Assembly: GCA_021788565.1 (NCBI GenBank)
Contig: JAJYKO010000047.1
Location: 1-13,932 of the forward strand
DNA from: Chloroflexota bacterium
Lineage (GTDB): Bacteria; Chloroflexota; UBA6077
Direction of reading: 5' to 3'
DNA: 13,932 nt
Part shown: in pieces, positions 4,335 through 11,845 of the stretch
Position numbering within the stretch: the first letter of the stretch is position 1
Layout: every line of letters starts with the position of its first letter
Translations under genes and position numbers: made by a program
The notes under the pieces: model-generated
The model's database searches: none
What the model was told of the DNA's origin: nothing
What the model saw: only the letters and a program-made list of their open reading frames with translations

Positions 4335-4404
4335 TGTCATTCTGAGCGCAGCGAAGAATCTCCGCGCGCATACGTGGAGACCCTTCGCTGCGCTCAGGGT
4401 GACA
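4335..4404. repeat. REP-like long palindrome (CTGAGCGCAGCGAAG family)
   Basis: Two 28-base arms (4336-4363 and 4376-4403) are inverted copies of each other around a 12-base centre, and one more outer base pair (4335 with 4404) extends the match. The arms differ at four positions only. Each arm also carries its own five-base inverted repeat: ATTCT (4339-4343) with AGAAT (4355-4359), and ACCCT (4380-4384) with AGGGT (4396-4400). The four differences are exactly the bases that keep these inner pairs complementary. Repeats of this look are scattered between genes in many environmental bacterial genomes and resemble REP/BIME elements mobilised by REP-associated transposases. A related copy lies at 9391-9492. 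Confidence 0.85.
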
Positions 4405-4641: not shown

Positions 4642-5139
4642 TCAGGCCGTTTTCTTCAGCTCCGGGGCTGCATCCCCGACGTCCGGGACCATCAGGATAT
4701 CCTTTACGAAGTGCATACCTTCCACGGCTGGCAGGCTCTTCCTTCCTCCAAAGAGGTCTGACAGGGCGTTCGTCCCAACCTGGTAGCCCGTGATAACCAG
4801 GTTCGTGTCGATCTCCACCTCTTCGATATTCCCCAGGAGGTTTCCGCCGTGGCTCAGGACCCTCACCCCCAGAAGTCTACTCAGGTCGACTGTTCCCTCG
4901 GCCTCGGCCAGCTCCTCCTGCGTAACGGACCTGGAATCCTTGATGGTGACGGCGTCGTGGCCGACCCTCGCGTCGATGGCCGAGACGGTTTTCACGACCC
5001 CCTCGGGCAACAATTTGATGCGGACGGCCACAACGTGCTGCGCGTCGGGGTTGAGCACGAGGTCCTGGACATCTCCGAGCTTCTCAGCGCCAGCGATGCT
5101 GACAACCGGCATTCCCAGTAACTGGGTTGCTTTCATCAT
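4642..5139 (-). CDS. PRC-barrel domain protein
   Basis: A 165-residue protein with two PRC-barrel-like units. The first runs from about residue 3 to 70 (ATQLLGMPVVSIAGAEKLGDVQDLVL). The second runs from about 85 to 150 (LLGVRVLSHGGNLLGNIEEVEID, then ITGYQV). The glycine-plus-acidic pattern 'G..LG.V.D' is the family hallmark. The frame is open nine codons further to 5166, but the ribosome site AGGAG lies inside that extension, seven bases before the ATG at 5139, and decides the start. PRC-barrel proteins are small scaffolding or RNA/protein-binding modules (RimM, photosynthetic reaction centre H subunit); stand-alone ones often sit among stress genes. No signal peptide or membrane segment is visible. 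The gene is preceded by copy A of the shared upstream element, giving a predicted leader of about 50 bases, and appears to be its own transcription unit. Confidence 0.88.
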   Translation of the reverse strand: MMKATQLLGMPVVSIAGAEKLGDVQDLVLNPDAQHVVAVRIKLLPEGVVKTVSAIDARVGHDAVTIKDSRSVTQEELAEAEGTVDLSRLLGVRVLSHGGNLLGNIEEVEIDTNLVITGYQVGTNALSDLFGGRKSLPAVEGMHFVKDILMVPDVGDAAPELKKTA

Positions 5140-5151: not shown

Positions 5152-5195
5152 ATTCAGGCGAACCATGCGTTTCTTGATGCACTCCCACGCTTAGC

Positions 5196-5253
5196 AGCGT
5201 ATGCGTAACCCACGCCGCCTGTCGTCTATCGAAGGCTTATTCTGGGATTAGAT
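5196..5253 (-). promoter_or_regulatory. Shared upstream element, copy A (PRC-barrel gene)
   Basis: Read towards the gene, this stretch runs from GATCTAATCCC through CCTTCGATAGACGACAGG to GTGGGTTACGCATACGCT. It shares a run of 27 identical bases (5216-5242) with copy D at 11808-11834. A promoter-like reading is ACGACA, an 18-base spacer, then TACGCT (5196-5201), placing transcription start about 50 bases before the ATG at 5139. Its conservation upstream of four genes, always facing the gene the same way, supports a promoter/operator rather than a passive repeat. The box assignment is inference. Confidence 0.7.
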
Positions 5254-5337
5254 CCGCGGAGAGTCTATCGGCGGATTGGTGGGGGAGCAGGCATCGGGCT
5301 CAGGGAAGAGGAGCAGCGGCGAGGGCGCGGGTGGTCT

Positions 5338-5715
5338 TCACTCGAGGTCAATCGTCTCGCCCTTGCCCTGGCGTGGACGCAACTGCAGCCGGGTGGGGCG
5401 GATCTCGACCAACTGGCACCACGCCGCTTCGGGCGTCCTGGCAAGGGCGAGTCCATCGGGGTGCTCACCTGGCCGCAGCAGGCGCGCTACCCCACGCATC
5501 TGCCACGTATCCGCGGTGGCCACTATCAGCGCATTGCTCTCCAGGTTGAACAGCAGATCGGACGTTCTCGCAACGAGCACGTAAAGGGCGAGCCCTATGG
5601 ACTCGCAGGACAGCGTCTCGGCCTGGATGTCCGCCGGACCGTTGGTCGAGAGCACGATCTGGCGTACGGTCGAAAGCGCTTCACTCGCGTGTTGTCGTAG
5701 CTGATGCAGCACCAC
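5338..5715 (-). CDS. Small split-barrel FMN-binding (PNPOx-like) protein
   Basis: A 125-residue protein resembling the short pyridoxamine 5'-phosphate oxidase-like flavin-binding family. The visible pattern is the N-terminal strand VRQIVLSTNGPADIQAETL, then LALYVLVARTSDLLFNLESN (the 'lyllls..s.k..nl..np' block), the strand ALIVATADTWQMRGVARLL, and a C-terminal CQLVEIRPTRLQLRP as in the family's last strand. Members form dimers and bind FMN, F420 or haem; many have no known reaction. The GTG start at 5715 has the ribosome site GGAAGG six bases upstream. A second GTG directly follows and cannot be excluded as the start. It has its own copy (B) of the shared element upstream, with a predicted leader of about 36 bases. 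The family call rests on pattern recognition and is moderately secure. Confidence 0.72.
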   Translation of the reverse strand: MVLHQLRQHASEALSTVRQIVLSTNGPADIQAETLSCESIGLALYVLVARTSDLLFNLESNALIVATADTWQMRGVARLLRPGEHPDGLALARTPEAAWCQLVEIRPTRLQLRPRQGKGETIDLE

Positions 5716-5740
5716 GGTCCGCCTTCCAATAATTGAAGAA

Positions 5741-5775
5741 CCGGTTTACGCTTGCATACGGTAGGCGTAAACCGG
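5741..5775. repeat. Perfect 11-base inverted repeat in the PNPOx-like gene promoter
   Basis: CCGGTTTACGC (5741-5751) and GCGTAAACCGG (5765-5775) are perfect inverted copies around 13 bases. The right arm belongs to shared element copy B; the left arm mirrors it across the predicted -10 box (5758-5763). It could be an operator, or the end of the LuxR-type transcript on the minus strand, where the hairpin is followed by the moderately T-rich TTCTTCAATTATT. Confidence 0.75.
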
Positions 5776-5815
5776 CGCGACTGTCGTCTATCTAAAGTCT
5801 AATCTTGGGGCTTAC
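5758..5815 (-). promoter_or_regulatory. Shared upstream element, copy B (PNPOx-like gene)
   Basis: This is the most divergent of the four main copies, but it keeps GATAGACGACAG, the GGTTTACGC block and the same spacing (ACGACA, 18 bases, TACCGT at 5758-5763). It overlaps the stop codon of the LuxR-type gene at 5812-5814, so this promoter-like region lies at the very end of the upstream gene. The predicted leader to the GTG at 5715 is about 36 bases. Confidence 0.62.
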
Positions 5816-8568
5816 CCTTGCTCGAGGAGCCCAAGGTTCCTGGCTCGGGCAACTGCCTCGGTGCGATTGCTCGCGCCGATCTTGCCCAAAATGTGGCTGA
5901 TGTGCGCCTTGACCGTACCCACGCTGACAGTGAGCTCGTTGGCGATCCTCTGGTTGGGGGCGCCCGCCGCCAGAAGCCGAAGAACCTCGACCTCTCGGGC
6001 GGTGAGTAGCTCAACTGTGGGGGCCGGGGGGCGGGACCCGGGGGTCAGTGATGTGCGCTCCGCCCTCTCGTCTCCTGACCCCTGGCCCCCGACCCCCGAC
6101 CCCTGGATGGCCGCCAACAGTCGGGCGACATACCTGGGTGCGATACCGCGCGCGGCCACCTGGCGGAGGAGCCTGCCCATCGGCTCGCCGTGATCCGCGA
6201 ACGTGCGCACATATCCCTCTGGCTCGGCCAGGGCCAGCGCCCGCTCCAGGGAGCCCACCGCGGGCGCAAGCTCGCCGTTCTGGTCCAGGGCCAGCGCCTG
6301 GAGGGTCAAGATCTCAATCACCACCCCGAAGCGTCCGGCTGCCTCAGCGGGCTCCAGGAGACGAGCCAGAAGCTTGAGCGCCTCGGCCGTCTCGCCCCGC
6401 GCCAGGCGGAGCCGCACCAGGCTCAGGCACTCTCGCTCGTCGGGCAAGCCGACTTGGACCGCTTCGCCCACACGGCGGTCCCGCGCCCACCTCGCCGCGT
6501 CTTCCAATCGGTCCAGAGCCACCAGGAGGTCGGCCCGTTCGGCCAGCAGAAGGCGGCGCATCACCGTCAAGCGTTGCTCCTGGACCGCCTCGATACCCCT
6601 CTCGATCATGGCCAGGCCGGCCTGAACGTCCGCCTGCGCTCGGCGGAGTTGCGCGAGCGCCCAGTAGGTCGCGGCCAGGGCGTCCACGTATCCGCTCTGC
6701 TCTCCCAGCTCCAGCGCTTGCCCGAGGTAGCCCCCAGCGCCGTCGAGATCATCCCTCTCGCGTCTCAAATGGCCCATGTAGGCGTACAGCATCCCCAACG
6801 TCGGCACCATCCGAGCAGGATCGTCGGCTACCTCCGCGACGACCTTTAGCGCCCGCTCACACACCTGCTCAGCCTCTCGAAGCCGCCCACGCACCATCTG
6901 AGCCCGAGCCAGGTGGGCCGAGGACACAACGACCATGTGAAGGCTTCCGGTGGCCAGGCTGAGATCGACCGCGTCGGCGAAGGCGGCGCTTGCCGGGACC
7001 ACTTCGCCGGTCGACAGGTGGGCATCCGCAAGGTTGAACGCGGCGAGACTCCGCATGAACAACTCGCCCGAGGGCAGGCGTGAGAGGGCCTGCCTGGCGT
7101 GCTCGACGGTGCGCCGCGCATCGGACTTCTGGCCGGCGATGCTGGCGCGGACGGCCGCGATCTGGCCCTGCAGGATCTGGGATTCCGGTTGCGGTATGCC
7201 AATGATCGCGCCGTCAGCACTATCAAGGTAGGCTTCCGACGCTTCCAGTTGCCCTCCCAGCGCCAGCGCCGCACCTACCAGGACGCACAGGCGGGGTCTT
7301 GCGTGCACAACCGCTTGCGGCAGCCGGTTGGCCCAGTTTAGAAGGAAGACGATCTCGCCCTGTCCCAGCACGCGGGGAGCATGTTCCTCGACCAGCCGCG
7401 CAGCTGCTTCGAAATCCTGCGCCGCCAGGGCATGGCCGATCGCCTCGTCCACCAGCCCCTGCCGCTCGTACCACTGGCTGGCCAGGCGGTGAAGCTCGGG
7501 GATCATCCCAGGCTCCTCCTCTGTCAGCCGTCCACTCAGGCAGTCCTGGAACAGGCGGTGGTAGCGATACCAGTGCCGCTCATCGTCCAGCGGTGTCACA
7601 AAGAGATTGTCGCGTTCCATCCGCAACAGAACCTCGGCGGCGTCGGTGCGCCCGGTTACGGCTTCGCAAAGTGGTCCCGAAAGCTCGGTCAGGATCGATG
7701 TCCGCAGAAGGAATTGCCGGATCTCCTCGGTCTGCCGGCTCAGGACTTCCTCTATCAGGTAGTCCACGATGTAGCGATGGGCACCGGTCACGGTGGACAA
7801 CAGACCAGCCACGTCTTGACGGCCCTGGATCGAAACGGCCACCAGCTGCAGCCCGACGATCCACCCCTCGGTGCTGGATTGGAGGGCCGCCACGTCGCCT
7901 GTACTGAGGCTGAGACCCATCACTCGGTTCAGGAACGTCTCAGCTTCTTCGATGGTGAAGAGGAGATCAGGGCCGCGGAGCTCGACCAGTTGATCGCGTG
8001 CCCGAAGACGGCTGAGGGGCAGCGGCGGGTCGGAGCGCGTGGTCATGACCAGGTGCACCTGTGCAGGCAGGTTCCCGATGAGGAAGGCAACAGCGTCGTG
8101 AACGGCCGGTGCGTCGATCTCCTGGTAGTCGTCCAAGACGAGAATCAGGTCGTCGGGTACGCCGGCCAGGTCGTTTAGAAGCGATGTGAGGACCGCCCTC
8201 GCCGGCGGAGGCTGATGGGACCGGAGCATGATCAAAGCAGCGGAACCCATGTCCTCCCGCACCCCGCTGAGGGCCGCGACTACGTACGTGAGGAACCGGG
8301 GCAGATCGTTGTCGTCCTCGTCCAGCGTGAGCCACGCGGTGGGGATTCCCTCCACCGGCCCTGCGAGCCACTCACTCACCAGGGTAGTCTTGCCGAACCC
8401 AACCGGGGCGGAGACGAGGGTGAGCGCGCGGCTGAGCCCAGCGTCCAGCCGCTTGGTCAGGCGCGCTCGAGACACGATGCTTGCCCGCACCCTTGGCTGG
8501 CGCAGCTTAACGGCCAAGAGTGGGGTCTGGCCCGACGGATTTGCAGCAGAGGAGCCAAGTTCGTCCAT
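5812..8568 (-). CDS. MalT-type LuxR-family ATP-dependent transcriptional regulator
   Basis: A 918-residue protein with the STAND/LAL regulator layout. An N-terminal P-loop NTPase has Walker A APVGFGKTT (residues 54-62) and Walker B LILVLDDY (about 141-148). Next comes a winged-helix linking region. A long helical TPR-like sensor region spans about 350-820. The LuxR helix-turn-helix fills the last 67 residues (LTAREVEVLRLLAAG, NQRIANELTVSVGTVKAH). A low-complexity Gly/Ser linker precedes the DNA-binding domain. I prefer the ATG at 8568. A GTG twelve codons upstream (8604) is in frame but has no ribosome site; the ATG's own site is also weak. In this class an inducer plus ATP drives oligomerisation and activation of target promoters. 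Its target is not shown, but it lies in the middle of genes sharing one upstream element and is a candidate activator of them. Its own upstream region lacks the element in the matching orientation. Confidence 0.92.
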   Translation of the reverse strand: MDELGSSAANPSGQTPLLAVKLRQPRVRASIVSRARLTKRLDAGLSRALTLVSAPVGFGKTTLVSEWLAGPVEGIPTAWLTLDEDDNDLPRFLTYVVAALSGVREDMGSAALIMLRSHQPPPARAVLTSLLNDLAGVPDDLILVLDDYQEIDAPAVHDAVAFLIGNLPAQVHLVMTTRSDPPLPLSRLRARDQLVELRGPDLLFTIEEAETFLNRVMGLSLSTGDVAALQSSTEGWIVGLQLVAVSIQGRQDVAGLLSTVTGAHRYIVDYLIEEVLSRQTEEIRQFLLRTSILTELSGPLCEAVTGRTDAAEVLLRMERDNLFVTPLDDERHWYRYHRLFQDCLSGRLTEEEPGMIPELHRLASQWYERQGLVDEAIGHALAAQDFEAAARLVEEHAPRVLGQGEIVFLLNWANRLPQAVVHARPRLCVLVGAALALGGQLEASEAYLDSADGAIIGIPQPESQILQGQIAAVRASIAGQKSDARRTVEHARQALSRLPSGELFMRSLAAFNLADAHLSTGEVVPASAAFADAVDLSLATGSLHMVVVSSAHLARAQMVRGRLREAEQVCERALKVVAEVADDPARMVPTLGMLYAYMGHLRRERDDLDGAGGYLGQALELGEQSGYVDALAATYWALAQLRRAQADVQAGLAMIERGIEAVQEQRLTVMRRLLLAERADLLVALDRLEDAARWARDRRVGEAVQVGLPDERECLSLVRLRLARGETAEALKLLARLLEPAEAAGRFGVVIEILTLQALALDQNGELAPAVGSLERALALAEPEGYVRTFADHGEPMGRLLRQVAARGIAPRYVARLLAAIQGSGVGGQGSGDERAERTSLTPGSRPPAPTVELLTAREVEVLRLLAAGAPNQRIANELTVSVGTVKAHISHILGKIGASNRTEAVARARNLGLLEQG
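6077..6106. repeat. C-rich minisatellite encoding the linker before the HTH domain
   Basis: Near-tandem units of the type GACCCCTGG / CCCCCGACC run through this stretch. On the coding (minus) strand they yield the glycine/serine-rich linker GSGVGGQGSG between the TPR region and the DNA-binding domain. The composition is clearly unlike flanking coding sequence, suggesting expansion of a short repeat inside a flexible linker. Confidence 0.65.
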
Positions 8569-8604
8569 GTGCGTATTGTACACCCAGCCAGACCAAGAGG
8601 ACAC

Positions 8605-8793
8605 GATAGGTCTGCCGTTATGCGATCTAACCCCGAAATAGGCCCTTCGACTGACGATAGAGGGCGTGGGTTACGAGTAAGCTGATACCAGGGCCATCTG
8701 ACATAACCAGCAAAGAATCAGCACCGCCGGCCGAGCAGTCAGCAAGGCCCGTGGAATATCAATTTAGGGACACTCAGCAACAAGGAGAAAGAT
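8605..8793. other. Divergent intergenic region, LuxR-type / YggT-type genes
   Basis: This stretch of about 190 bases holds the start regions of two divergent genes. The shared element copy C (8624-8683) points to the plus-strand YggT-type gene. No clear promoter for the minus-strand LuxR-type gene was recognised, so it may use sequence overlapping copy C on the opposite strand, which would allow cross-regulation. Confidence 0.5.
8624..8683 (+). promoter_or_regulatory. Shared upstream element, copy C (YggT-type gene)
   Basis: This is the only copy on the plus strand, and it precedes the only plus-strand gene of the set. It runs from GATCTAACCCCG through CCTTCGACTGACGATAG to GCGTGGGTTACGAGTAAGCT. 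The boxes would be ACGATA, 18 bases, then TAAGCT (8678-8683), with a leader of about 100 bases to the ATG at 8794. The switch of strand together with the gene is the best argument that the element is functional. Confidence 0.7.
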
Positions 8794-9351
8794 ATGACAC
8801 AAGTACCTGATCCACGGTCAGACGAGCAATACGAAGCTACCAGGGTCGACGAGACGGTCGCTCCATCAAATGGTCCGGTCCTGGCCTCGTCTCACACGGA
8901 GCACACCGAGACGACCACTGAAAGTACGGCCGGCATTGAGCAAAGGGAGCGCGTGGTCACCGGGCAGGGCGGCATCGAACACCGCGAACGGATCGTGCAG
9001 GATACCGCCGCTGAGCAAATGCTAAACCGCCTCAGGGTTTCCCAATTGATCTGGCTCTTCTTCGGTATCGTCGAGATACTGATCGGCTTGCGCGTCCTGC
9101 TGAAGTTAATAGGCGCCAACCCTGCCAACGGCTTCGCGAGCTTCATATACAATGCAGCCGCGCTCTTTCTGTCGCCGTTCTTCGGCCTGATCGGCAGCCC
9201 GTCCGCCGGCAGCGTGGTCCTGGAGGTTCCATCGCTCATAGCCATGTTGGTTTACGCCCTGCTGGGCTGGTTGATCGTGCGCGTGATCACGCAGTTCTTT
9301 TTCCCACCCACGACGCGCGGCAGCTCGACTTACGATCGCTACCCGAGCTGA
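8794..9351 (+). CDS. YggT-family membrane protein with charged N-terminal tail
   Basis: A 185-residue protein. The ATG at 8794 has a strong ribosome site, AAGGAG, six bases upstream. Residues 1-80 are hydrophilic and rich in Thr/Glu, with a near-repeat GIEQRERVV (47-55) and GIEHRERIV (60-68). Membrane segments follow at about 84-107, 117-135 and 146-169. The pattern FGIVEILIGLRVLLKLIGANPANGFASFIYN with FLSPFFG matches the YggT integral-membrane family. The C-terminus is short and polar. YggT proteins are small inner-membrane proteins of unclear role, linked in some bacteria to osmotic stress and cell shape. The long soluble N-terminus is not part of the core family and is probably cytoplasmic. 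The gene stands alone, preceded by copy C of the shared element and followed by a REP-like repeat. Confidence 0.82.
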   Translation: MTQVPDPRSDEQYEATRVDETVAPSNGPVLASSHTEHTETTTESTAGIEQRERVVTGQGGIEHRERIVQDTAAEQMLNRLRVSQLIWLFFGIVEILIGLRVLLKLIGANPANGFASFIYNAAALFLSPFFGLIGSPSAGSVVLEVPSLIAMLVYALLGWLIVRVITQFFFPPTTRGSSTYDRYPS

Positions 9352-9390
9352 GCTGTCCTAGCGAGTACAGCCGGCTGGTCTCAGCAATAA

Positions 9391-9492
9391 GAGGAAGGGT
9401 CTCCGCAGGCGAGGAGACCCTTCGCCGCGGCCGCTACGAAAGTGAATCGCGCCGGCGCCAACCAGGAGATCCTTCGCCGCGGCTCAGGATGG
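9391..9492. repeat. Composite REP-like repeat after the YggT-type gene
   Basis: A perfect 10-base inverted repeat (AAGGGTCTCC at 9395-9404, GGAGACCCTT at 9413-9422, loop of eight) is built from the inner ends of the same palindrome family as 4335-4404. A further half-unit at 9465-9492 carries ATCCT (9469-9473) and AGGAT (9486-9490) around CGCCGCGG-type sequence. The copy is rearranged or decayed: the outer left arm is missing and two right arms are present. It fills the gap between convergent genes and may help end both transcripts, though no T-tract follows. Confidence 0.72.
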
Positions 9493-9559
9493 CAGGGGGG
9501 GCAACCTGGCCGATGGACCGCCTGGTTATGGCGCCGAACCCCCGCTCGTCCTGGAGCTG

Positions 9560-10495
9560 CTACCCTGGTTCTTGCCGGTCCCTGTCCGCCTCCAGATAGG
9601 CAGGGATGGTGGTCTCGATAATCCGATCCAAGGTCATATTCACGGCAACCTGCAGAGCCAACACCTCGTCGATGGAGATCTCTTTCGGCAGATACCGGCA
9701 CAGGGTCTTCCAGATTTCGTTCCGGAGCAGCGTGTACTCCCTGATGACGGCAGCCAGCGGGATAGCCTGTTTCCGCCGGATGACCGCGTGGAGGCGGGCT
9801 CGCTCCAGTGCGTCCGGGTGGTGCCGGAAGAACTCTTCGGGATCGCGGTAGAGGAGCGCGGCCGAGACGGCCTCCACCAGGGTGGGCACGTAGTCGATGA
9901 AACCGGCCAGGCGCAGGCCCCGCCGGTACTTCCAAGGCTCTTCCTCCTGCAACCGCTGAATCCACTCGAAGAGGGCCTCCGGGGAGTGTTCGGCCAGAAT
10001 ACGCTGGGCTCGCCACAGGATCGTATCGCTTTCTGCTTGGTTGGGTGGGAGCGTGGGGAAGATTGCCGGCAGCTGAAGAGCCTCCTGGATCTTCGCCAGG
10101 AGCTCGGTCAGGTCGAAGGGCTTTAAGACGCTGGCCCGGACGTTGTAGCTGGAAAGAGCCCGGCCCCCCATTTCCTCATCGCTCACCATCACCACCACGG
10201 GGATATGGGAGACGGCCTGGTCGATCCGCATTCCGTCGAGGAGACCAAAGCCCCCGCCGGGATCGCCGGCAAGCAGGTCCAGGAGGAGCAGATCGGGCTG
10301 GCGCTTCCGCACCTCGGGCAAGAGGTTGGCGCCGTCATGGATGCTTTCAGCCTCATAGCCACCGGTCTCCAGCCCCCAACATGCTAAATCGGCCAGCTCC
10401 TCGCTGTGCTCGATCACGAGCACGCGGCTCGGCCTCTTTGTGACCTGTTCGATGCTGTGTTCGATGACGAGCACTGGCGCTCTCGTCTTAGCCAT
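9560..10495 (-). CDS. Atypical response regulator with RsbRD_N-like C-terminal domain
   Basis: A 311-residue protein. A receiver-like domain covers about 24-140: candidate phospho-acceptor D73 (LLLLD), S105 in VVVMVS, and K125 in LKPFD are present. The paired acidic residues normally at the end of the first strand are replaced by E29-H30 (VLVIEH). The first strand is preceded by a near-copy of itself, VLVIEHS at 8-14 and 25-31. Residues about 160-300 are helical (LFEWIQRL, YVPTLVEAVSAALL, HAVIRRKQAIPLAAVIREYTLLR) and resemble the RsbRD N-terminal (RsbT co-antagonist) domain; there is no DNA-binding domain. The ATG at 10495 has GGAGG eight bases upstream. The gene lies 78 bases after a histidine kinase on the same strand and is its likely partner. 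Output is probably by protein contact, as in partner-switching stress pathways (inference). The C-terminal family call is less sure than the receiver call. Confidence 0.82.
   Translation of the reverse strand: MAKTRAPVLVIEHSIEQVTKRPSRVLVIEHSEELADLACWGLETGGYEAESIHDGANLLPEVRKRQPDLLLLDLLAGDPGGGFGLLDGMRIDQAVSHIPVVVMVSDEEMGGRALSSYNVRASVLKPFDLTELLAKIQEALQLPAIFPTLPPNQAESDTILWRAQRILAEHSPEALFEWIQRLQEEEPWKYRRGLRLAGFIDYVPTLVEAVSAALLYRDPEEFFRHHPDALERARLHAVIRRKQAIPLAAVIREYTLLRNEIWKTLCRYLPKEISIDEVLALQVAVNMTLDRIIETTIPAYLEADRDRQEPG
10403..10474. repeat. Short direct repeat at the 5' end of the response regulator gene
   Basis: Two 21-base segments (10403-10423 and 10454-10474), differing at two positions, lie 51 bases apart, exactly 17 codons. 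On the coding strand both encode VLVIEHS, so the first beta strand of the receiver is duplicated in frame. Confidence 0.75.
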
Positions 10496-10525
10496 ATATT
10501 CTGCCTCCAGGCTCGGTTAAGTTCT

Positions 10526-10544
10526 GCCGCACAAAAGGTGCGGC
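10526..10544. other. Hairpin between kinase and response regulator genes
   Basis: GCCGCAC (10526-10532) and GTGCGGC (10538-10544) form a perfect seven-base GC-rich stem with a five-base loop. It lies in the 78-base gap, about 30 bases before the response regulator start. It lacks a T-tract and may be a leader structure or mRNA processing site setting relative levels of the two proteins. Confidence 0.5.
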
Positions 10545-10554
10545 CCTTTGCGTG

Positions 10555-10579
10555 CGTCTATTTCGGGGAAGGCCTATTC
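10555..10579 (-). promoter_or_regulatory. Possible degenerate fifth copy of the shared upstream element
   Basis: Plus-strand CGTCTAT (10555-10561) and GAAGGCCTATTC (10568-10579) match two blocks of the shared element (CGTCTAT and GAAGGCTTATTC) in the same order and orientation, but with six extra bases between them and without the GGGTTACGC end. It overlaps the 3' end of the kinase gene and precedes the response regulator. It may be a relic or chance. Confidence 0.3.
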
Positions 10580-11686
10580 CTCGCTTAGCGGCAGACTGAT
10601 ATAGAAGCTGCTCCCCTTGCCTGGCTTGCTTTCAACCCAGATCCGTCCACCGTGGGCCTCCACGATCTGCCGGGTGATGGCAAGCCCGAGCCCGAGCCCG
10701 CCGGCCTTCTTGCCGCTGCCGGTTCGGTACAAACGGTGGAAGAGCTGTCTCTGCTCCTCGGGCGCGATCCCCGCTCCCTGGTCGATGACGGAGATCACTA
10801 CGTCCCCGCCGCTGCGCACGACTTTTACAACAACTGGGCTGCGAGAGGGTGAGTACCTGAACGCGTTGGCGATGAGGTTCGTGATCGCCCTCTCGATTCT
10901 CTCCCAATCAACAGACAGGGGCGGCAGAGGCTCCGGACACTCCACCCGCAGCCACTCCTGCTCCTCGGCCGTCCCGACCCGGCCGGCAAGGTCCGTGATC
11001 AGATAGCAGAGATCCGTGGGTTCCCTGTGAAGCTCGAACACCCCAGCCTCCAGGCGGACCGAATCCACCAACTCCTGGATCATGGAGTCCATCCTCTTGG
11101 CGCTCTTCACAATGGCCTCGGCAGCCCTGGCCTCCTGATCCATCCCCCTCATCGCCAGCTTCCGCTGGAGTATCGAGGCGTGCCCTATCACGGGGGTCAG
11201 AGGCTGCCGCAGGTCGTGAGAGATCGTGCGGATAACCTCCTCGCGTTGCGCTTGAAGCTCTTGGATGGAGGTAATATCGGAGAACGCGAAGACGGCCCCA
11301 AGGGCGGTGCCCTCCTTGGTAACAACCGGAGCAGCACCGGCGGCGATCGAGAGGATGCTGCCATCTCGCGTGCTCAAGGCCATTATCTCGTCGCGCACCG
11401 TCTCTCCCCGCAACGCCCGGGCCGTCGGGGTCTCATCTCGCTTCCACGGTTCTCCGTCGGGAGTCTTAGCATGGCTCGTCGCAACAGATCCTTCCAGAAA
11501 CCCGCTCCACTCCTTCAGAGTGTAACCCAGCATTGTCTCAGCGGCCGCGTTCACGCGGAGGACCTGTCCGTGGAGGTCGTAAACGACGATGCCGACGGTC
11601 GCGGAGTCGATAGCGGCCTCCAACTCCGCCGCGACCGCCTCGGCTCGTTGCAGAGGATCTAAATGTGCAGGGTTCCTTCCGCTCAT
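10574..11686 (-). CDS. Soluble PAS-domain sensor histidine kinase
   Basis: A 370-residue kinase. A PAS domain covers about 20-140 (AIDSATVGIVVYDLHGQVLRVN, then LGAVFAFSDIT). The HisKA dimerisation box is TISHDLRQPLTP with phospho-accepting H157. The HATPase domain shows an N-box with NLIANAFRYSP (N270, N274), a G1 box DQGAGIAPEE and a G2 box GGLGLGLAI. The frame is open to a TTG at 11722, but the ATG at 11686 has the ribosome site AGAAGGA six bases upstream and is chosen. No membrane segment is present, so it senses a cytoplasmic signal through PAS, for which no cofactor residue can be named. The downstream response regulator is the likely phosphotransfer partner. Copy D of the shared element precedes it, with a leader of about 95 bases. 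Confidence 0.93.
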   Translation of the reverse strand: MSGRNPAHLDPLQRAEAVAAELEAAIDSATVGIVVYDLHGQVLRVNAAAETMLGYTLKEWSGFLEGSVATSHAKTPDGEPWKRDETPTARALRGETVRDEIMALSTRDGSILSIAAGAAPVVTKEGTALGAVFAFSDITSIQELQAQREEVIRTISHDLRQPLTPVIGHASILQRKLAMRGMDQEARAAEAIVKSAKRMDSMIQELVDSVRLEAGVFELHREPTDLCYLITDLAGRVGTAEEQEWLRVECPEPLPPLSVDWERIERAITNLIANAFRYSPSRSPVVVKVVRSGGDVVISVIDQGAGIAPEEQRQLFHRLYRTGSGKKAGGLGLGLAITRQIVEAHGGRIWVESKPGKGSSFYISLPLSEE

Positions 11687-11692
11687 ACGTGG

Positions 11693-11699
11693 TCCTTCT
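11693..11699 (-). promoter_or_regulatory. Ribosome binding site that sets the kinase start
   Basis: AGAAGGA on the minus strand, six bases before the ATG at 11686. It lies downstream of the alternative TTG start at 11722, which has no comparable site. Confidence 0.7.
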
Positions 11700-11787
11700 A
11701 CGCAGGTCTGTCGTGAGAGCAAGGCGTACCCAGCCGGCAGGGCATGGCATCGGCGCAGTGCTAACTGGGTGACAGGCTCCAGGTGCC

Positions 11788-11845
11788 AGCGTAGGACTAA
11801 CCCACGTCGCCTGTCGTCTATCGAAGGCTTATTCGAGGATTAGAT
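11788..11845 (-). promoter_or_regulatory. Shared upstream element, copy D (histidine kinase gene)
   Basis: Nearly identical to copy A through the core, with 27 identical bases at 11808-11834, plus a common GATTAGAT further out. The boxes are ACGACA, 18 bases, then TACGCT (11788-11793). It fills the gap between the end of the GH94-type gene (11865) and the kinase, giving the kinase its own promoter rather than relying on read-through. Confidence 0.72.

Follow-up and report, generated by a model that had tools for sequence, protein, structure and literature searches.

Within the window, i.e., the whole 13,932-nucleotide stretch of Chloroflexota DNA that was analyzed, copies of a promoter-like element precede four genes, and the gene of a large transcriptional regulator lies among these sites. 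The PRC-barrel gene (4642..5139, minus strand) and the PAS histidine kinase gene (10574..11722, minus strand) had been named in the first-pass annotation, and both identities are clear in Pfam, the former from PF05239 and the latter from its PAS, HisKA and HATPase_c domains. The start of the PRC-barrel gene was picked from the AGGAG ahead of its ATG, and for the kinase gene an ATG at 11686 is a possible start as well. The naming of the other two genes held in part. The YggT-type gene (8794..9351, plus strand; 275 homologues at E<=0.001) gave a weak match to YGGT (PF02325), but this match is below the cut-off with 20 against 27 bits. The PNPOx-like split-barrel gene (5338..5715, minus strand) has no Pfam match, but the predicted fold of its product (pLDDT 89.8) resembles FMN split barrels, General Stress Protein 26 among them. 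This protein has 112 homologues, the best being 98% identical, and it seems to form a family of its own. Wherever organism names were given, the homologues of the YggT-type and PNPOx-like proteins come from a Chloroflexi/Chloroflexota or a Dehalococcoidia bacterium.

The regulator gene, on which the first-pass annotation was silent, is located between copies B and C of the element (5812..8604, minus strand). It encodes a LAL (MalT-like LuxR) regulator of 930 aa with a MalT-like TPR region (TPR_MalT, PF17874, E 6.6e-63) and a C-terminal LuxR-type helix-turn-helix (GerE, PF00196, residues 866-919, E 1.2e-17). The Pfam scan listed no NTPase match, and a Walker A motif, APVGFGKTT, was read by eye in the N-terminal part of the translation.

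The four copies, each about 58 bases long, were found at the places claimed for them, and each is oriented toward its own gene (4/4). Copy A (5195..5252, minus strand; core and -35 box at 5220-5241, predicted -10 box at 5196-5201) precedes the PRC-barrel gene, and copy B (5758..5815, minus strand; core and -35 box at 5782-5803, predicted -10 box at 5758-5763) precedes the PNPOx-like gene and shares 4 nt with the end of the LAL gene. Copy C (8625..8684, plus strand; core and -35 box at 8638-8659, predicted -10 box at 8678-8683) sits in the divergent region upstream of the LAL gene and is directed at the YggT-type gene, while copy D (11787..11844, minus strand; core and -35 box at 11812-11833, predicted -10 box at 11788-11793) lies before the histidine kinase gene. 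The gap of 18 bases between ACGA(C/T)A and TAnnnT is constant in all four copies, and orientation and spacing are kept before separately transcribed genes, as expected for the promoter-like element that had been proposed. The distance between the predicted -10 box, measured from its end, and the start codon is 56 nt for A (counted to the ATG at 5139), 42 for B, 110 for C and 65 or 101 for D (counted to the TTG at 11722 or to the ATG at 11686, respectively), which fits the leaders of 36-100 bases predicted earlier.

A composite pattern of the element, with up to three mismatches tolerated, matched the window at exactly four sites, all of them exact (5200-5230, 5762-5792 and 11792-11822 on the minus strand and 8649-8679 on the plus strand). 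In 200 dinucleotide-preserving shuffles of the window the mean was 0.01 sites and none reached four, which shows no more than that the sites are not due to chance, since the pattern was derived from the same four copies. A shorter 18-base pattern recovered copies A, B and D, and in a repeat search A, B and D formed the first direct family, whereas C was paired with A and with D in inverted orientation.

Copy B is accompanied by an additional inverted repeat (5741..5775, arms of 11 bases at 5741-5751 and 5765-5775), which was read in the sequence, appears as hairpin in folding and surrounds the -10 box of this copy. Because its left arm, on the strand of the gene, lies between -35 and -10, a second operator is likelier than an RNA hairpin, and this repeat may possibly be one; a second inverted repeat around the -10 box is present in some relatives as well. 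Elsewhere in the window, a 32-nt inverted repeat with a 6-nt loop (4335-4404, 84% complementary) has partial relatives at 9404-9429 and 9456-9481 and looks like a REP-type dispersed repeat.

Anatomy and distribution of the element

Relatives of the element were collected by several routes. The exact composite pattern gave no match in genome contigs. A search with the PNPOx-like protein led to four loci (L001-L004), and the element precedes the PNPOx homologue in L001, L002 and L004 (70%, 47% and 31% protein identity); at L003 it was not found, although a LAL gene and the PNPOx gene are in place. The PNPOx alignment retrieved no relative from viral contigs, and in the class of G001 it matched 2 of 393 genomes, G001 itself and a contig-end fragment in G051. 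A sequence-only model, R1, was built from copies A-D and from L001, L002 and L004. At E<=0.01 it matched four genomes among 400 from the phylum and another four among 158 from the class of G002, and these eight comprise three training genomes, three new ones (G406, G469 and G746) and two near chance (G520 and G806). The weak matches in G520, G806 and G397 were dismissed as near chance, with the sequence inspected for the first two only.

A second model, R2, was trained on 15 sites, all of which match it by construction. In the class of G003, one Chloroflexota class, R2 gave 36 matches in 24 of 346 genomes, none of which had contributed a training site, compared to two matches in 2 of 346 genomes for the reversed control model R3, which has a similar information content (0.689 against 0.679 bits per position for R2). 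In a draw from the phylum, 4 of 311 genomes were matched, three of them training genomes, so that within what was searched the element is rare beyond the class of G003. Among genomes from the order of G469, R2 found G469 itself and a weak match in one of 12 others. Further analyses refer to 31 matches, i.e., 30 of the 36 from the class of G003 and the weak one from the order of G469. The remaining six matches are without a locus, two of these places being L115 and L119, and the training copies (window, G001, G002, G004, G406, G469 and G746) are excluded.

The best-fitting core in these 31 matches is ATCTATC-TTTC-GATAGAT-GACA, of which 14 to 22 of 22 positions are kept. It consists of a dyad, in its cleanest form ATCTATC-TTTC-GATAGAT, that is fused with the -35 box, as the end of the dyad together with GACA forms aTGACA. 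The dyad is perfect (7-4-7) in L075 and L090, and such inverted half-sites with a 4-nt centre, of the DosR/OsdR kind, suit a GerE dimer. In two further loci both sides of the dyad have changed, with six of seven pairs kept in each (TTCAACC-TTTC-GGTTGAT in L069 and ATCCAAC-TTTA-GATGGAT in L087). Among the window copies the right half-site is better kept and the left half is degenerate. A -10 box (TAnnnT) follows 17 or 18 nt past the -35 box in 28 of the 31 matches, and the operator abuts -35, as in sigma70 class II activator promoters. As the -10 box is part of model R2, only the seven matches that were aligned without it are unbiased in this respect; six of these seven have TAnnnT at exactly 17 nt, a result that 20,000 mononucleotide shuffles did not once equal. 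Many copies also carry AACCCC upstream, and GGTTTA between the two boxes. In some copies the upstream TAAnCC boxes are spaced by 11-13 nt, and the core itself is a dyad; three direct repeats of period 11 had been the first idea for the core and were displaced by the dyads of the relatives. Taken at the level of sequence, an operator combined with a sigma70-type promoter is the best-supported reading of the element.

LAL genes and their recognition helices

In 16 of the 31 matches, the element sits -5 to 300 nt past the stop codon of a LAL gene on the same strand. The chance of such adjacency is below 0.1%, an estimate based on the genome richest in LAL matches (47 in 9.3 Mb) of the 13 counted; in total, these 13 genomes contain 137 LAL matches, 1 to 47 per genome with fragments included. 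The same order of LAL gene and element is seen in the window (copy B), in G406, in G004 and in two G469 copies, all of which are training sites. That the element is often right behind a LAL gene in distant relatives makes a LAL the likely protein working the switch. The other 15 of the 31 matches are not directly behind a LAL gene, so that the assignment is strong but unproven. At L071, a divergent LAL was matched at a distance of 64-91 nt from the element. The copies at L089, L092 and L093 each share their contig with a LAL-adjacent match that is 1.2 to 2.2 kb away, and are thus second copies. For the three copies on contig C15 of G469, no LAL was found within the 19 kb examined.

For a comparison of LAL proteins with the DNA behind their genes, 71 LAL 3' ends were available from 80 loci of 13 genomes, which had been chosen for the element or for a PNPOx relative; one LAL is entered twice (L162), and the minus-strand entry of L126 is probably no LAL. 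With a core called at a minimum of 15 of 22 positions within 250 nt, it was found behind 11 of the 22 LALs whose recognition helix is of the GT[VA]K type and behind 2 of the 49 others; half of the GT[VA]K LALs, L003 among them, are therefore without a recognizable core behind the gene. Under the stricter element rule (core plus -10) the same helix test gave 10/11 vs. 12/61 (p 1.1e-5), a p-value to be taken as a guide only, like the others here, since the helix patterns were noticed before counting and the LALs share ancestry. A second operator class is the dyad AACAC-N4-GTGTC. Of the 13 LALs that have [SDA]T[VI]KG helices, 5 are followed by it, compared to none of 58 others, and within that group it lies behind five of the six with DTVKG or DTIKG helices (L061, L125, L043, L122 and L143).

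By geometry alone, i.e., a dyad, the AC of the -35 box and a -10 box at 17 or 18, five of the 58 LAL ends without the canonical core carry another dyad with at least five of seven pairs in the same place relative to -35 and -10, compared to a mean of 0.14 and a maximum of 1 in 200 shuffles and to none on the reverse strand. Distances between helices and between operators correlate (r 0.56, reached in 0 of 10,000 permutations) in 27 hand-chosen pairs. These post hoc observations suggest, as guides only, that the operator sequence follows the recognition helix of the LAL. In the recognition helix of RcsB, K180 and S184 are described to make base contacts (PMC5829831), and by our own alignment on the following Thr, K180 would correspond to the Gly or Asp before Thr that separates the two LAL helix classes.

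As a side observation, LAL genes are often followed immediately by the gene of a small protein that contains WxxWF and DQAALHGLL-like motifs, in 14 of the 71 flanks (L035, L037, L039, L057, L121, L125, L127, L150, L156, L157, L162 and L164, with L162 entered twice, and L124, which matches the second motif only). It may be a conserved LAL partner.

Proposed mechanism and rival explanations

Class II activators are arranged in this way, with a dimer, here of GerE domains, seated on a dyad that merges with a sigma70-type -35 box, and MalT is an ATP-dependent activator. From the arrangement described above, each copy of the element is probably a compact promoter that is worked by a LAL regulator, in the window most likely by the one encoded at 5812-8604. 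A dimer formed by the C-terminal GerE helix-turn-helix of the LAL would occupy a dyad (ATCTATC-TTTC-GATAGAT in its clean form), the end of which runs into the -35 box (aTGACA), and the bound LAL would aid sigma70 RNA polymerase at the -10 box 17-18 bases downstream. The upstream TAAnCCC box is a possible seat for further LAL subunits. By analogy with MalT, activation by the LAL is considered about twice as likely as repression. We infer binding by the LAL, activation, a signal and a role in stress.

It appears unlikely that the element is read by a different regulator with a GerE domain, for instance a response regulator of the NarL/FixJ type, and that LAL genes are just common among its neighbours or targets. 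GerE domains do bind similar dyads, as described for OsdR, with the palindrome AGGGCC-GATC-GGCCCT and a centre of 4 nt (PMC5069765), and for DegU, which binds a palindrome as dimer (PMC9263151), and the 15 matches away from LAL ends would suit such a regulator. However, the dyad behind a LAL gene tracks the recognition helix of that very LAL, which a third protein would not explain. It is quite improbable that the element constitutes the promoter class of an alternative sigma factor, although its -35 and -10 boxes are conserved at fixed spacing, the targets are stress-like and a sigma70-family gene (L023:7125-8222, regions 1.2, 2, 3 and 4) follows the element-driven yggT in G469. The boxes resemble those of ordinary sigma70 promoters, the strongest conservation is in the dyad upstream of -35, and two G469 copies (C98 and C1) keep the core without TAnnnT at the usual distance.

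A structured, riboswitch-like RNA leader is very improbable. The arms of copies A-D can pair, some of them with changes on both sides (GCCT/AGGC and GACT/AGTC), but pairing fails in L001 and three of the four copies fold no better than shuffles, with copy B reaching a z of -2.0 through its extra inverted repeat. Moreover, no Rfam family matched at its gathering score in the window, at the element included, and the dyad is upstream of the predicted -10 box and would thus be untranscribed from that promoter. A passive dispersed repeat or mobile element is hardly conceivable, as already argued in the first-pass annotation: the 27 identical bases in copies A and D, which are legible in the sequence as had been claimed, would fit it, whereas the conserved orientation and spacing of all four copies do not, and the copies of relatives diverge in sequence and yet keep the dyad and its distance to -35 and -10.

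Known systems and a probable small local regulon

The operator of MalT is composed of direct repeats, and the half-site of DevR/DosR is of the GGGAC type. Compared to MalT and the SARP-LALs, the core described here is an inverted repeat that runs into the -35 box and often lies just behind the regulator gene. Compared to DevR/DosR and OsdR, which are two-component response regulators, the regulator here is a LAL and the half-sites differ; GGGAC-type half-sites were not found in the element, whose half-sites are CTATC/GATAG-like. The window LAL resembles MalT and other LALs (maltose regulon; Streptomyces LALs) as a large regulator of the ATP-binding type with MalT-like TPR and C-terminal LuxR-type helix-turn-helix, in line with the definition of the LAL family (PMC3282765), and for SARP-LALs heptameric direct repeats are reported that are read by the SARP domain (PMC5930380). 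The DevR/DosR and OsdR regulons are similar in their GerE-type regulator, the palindrome with a 4-nt centre, a core regulon near the regulator gene and the stress theme (PMC5069765), while RcsB and DegU have only the DNA-binding domain (GerE helix-turn-helix) in common with the LAL. In the available parts of the open-licence literature searched, including PMC9263151, PMC5069765, PMC9734109, PMC3282765 and PMC5829831, no description of this operator or of any operator for a Chloroflexota LAL was found.

The regulon that had been proposed holds in a smaller form. The genome-wide scans, made in relatives, found few sites per genome, which speaks against a broad regulon and for a small, local one with its likely regulator among the sites. 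In the genomes of nine relatives, searched with laxer filters at E<=0.01, there were 0 to 3 matches per genome, and G469 had five with the second model, three of them within 8 kb of one contig. Of these three, one precedes a yggT homologue (60% identity), another a 56-aa ORF with a GlsB-like gene (PF04226) after it, and the third a 62-aa ORF that has a Ctc/L25 gene next to it downstream. Two weaker matches in G469 fall just past LAL ends. GlsB-like, Ctc/L25, flavodoxin, cupin, MoxR-type AAA, SnoaL and methyltransferase genes come after copies in relatives. The four target genes of the window probably form a small local regulon around the LAL gene. Its theme looks like stress, judged from the names of the genes, i.e., YggT, the GSP26-like split barrel, the PRC-barrel and the kinase, together with Ctc/L25 and GlsB-like in a relative.

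There is, in our estimation, an even chance that Chloroflexota LALs commonly have their cognate promoter directly behind their own gene, with a dyad that is fixed relative to -35 and read by few residues of the recognition helix, so that the protein sequence of an orphan LAL could serve to predict its operator and targets, and that the LAL of the window governs a small regulon for stress, made up of the PRC-barrel, YggT, GSP26-like and kinase genes. If this is true, the location of the operator next to the regulator gene, and half-sites that vary with the recognition helix, would make targets predictable for numerous orphan LALs, and Chloroflexota would offer a natural series of helix-turn-helix and operator pairs on which a recognition code could be tested.
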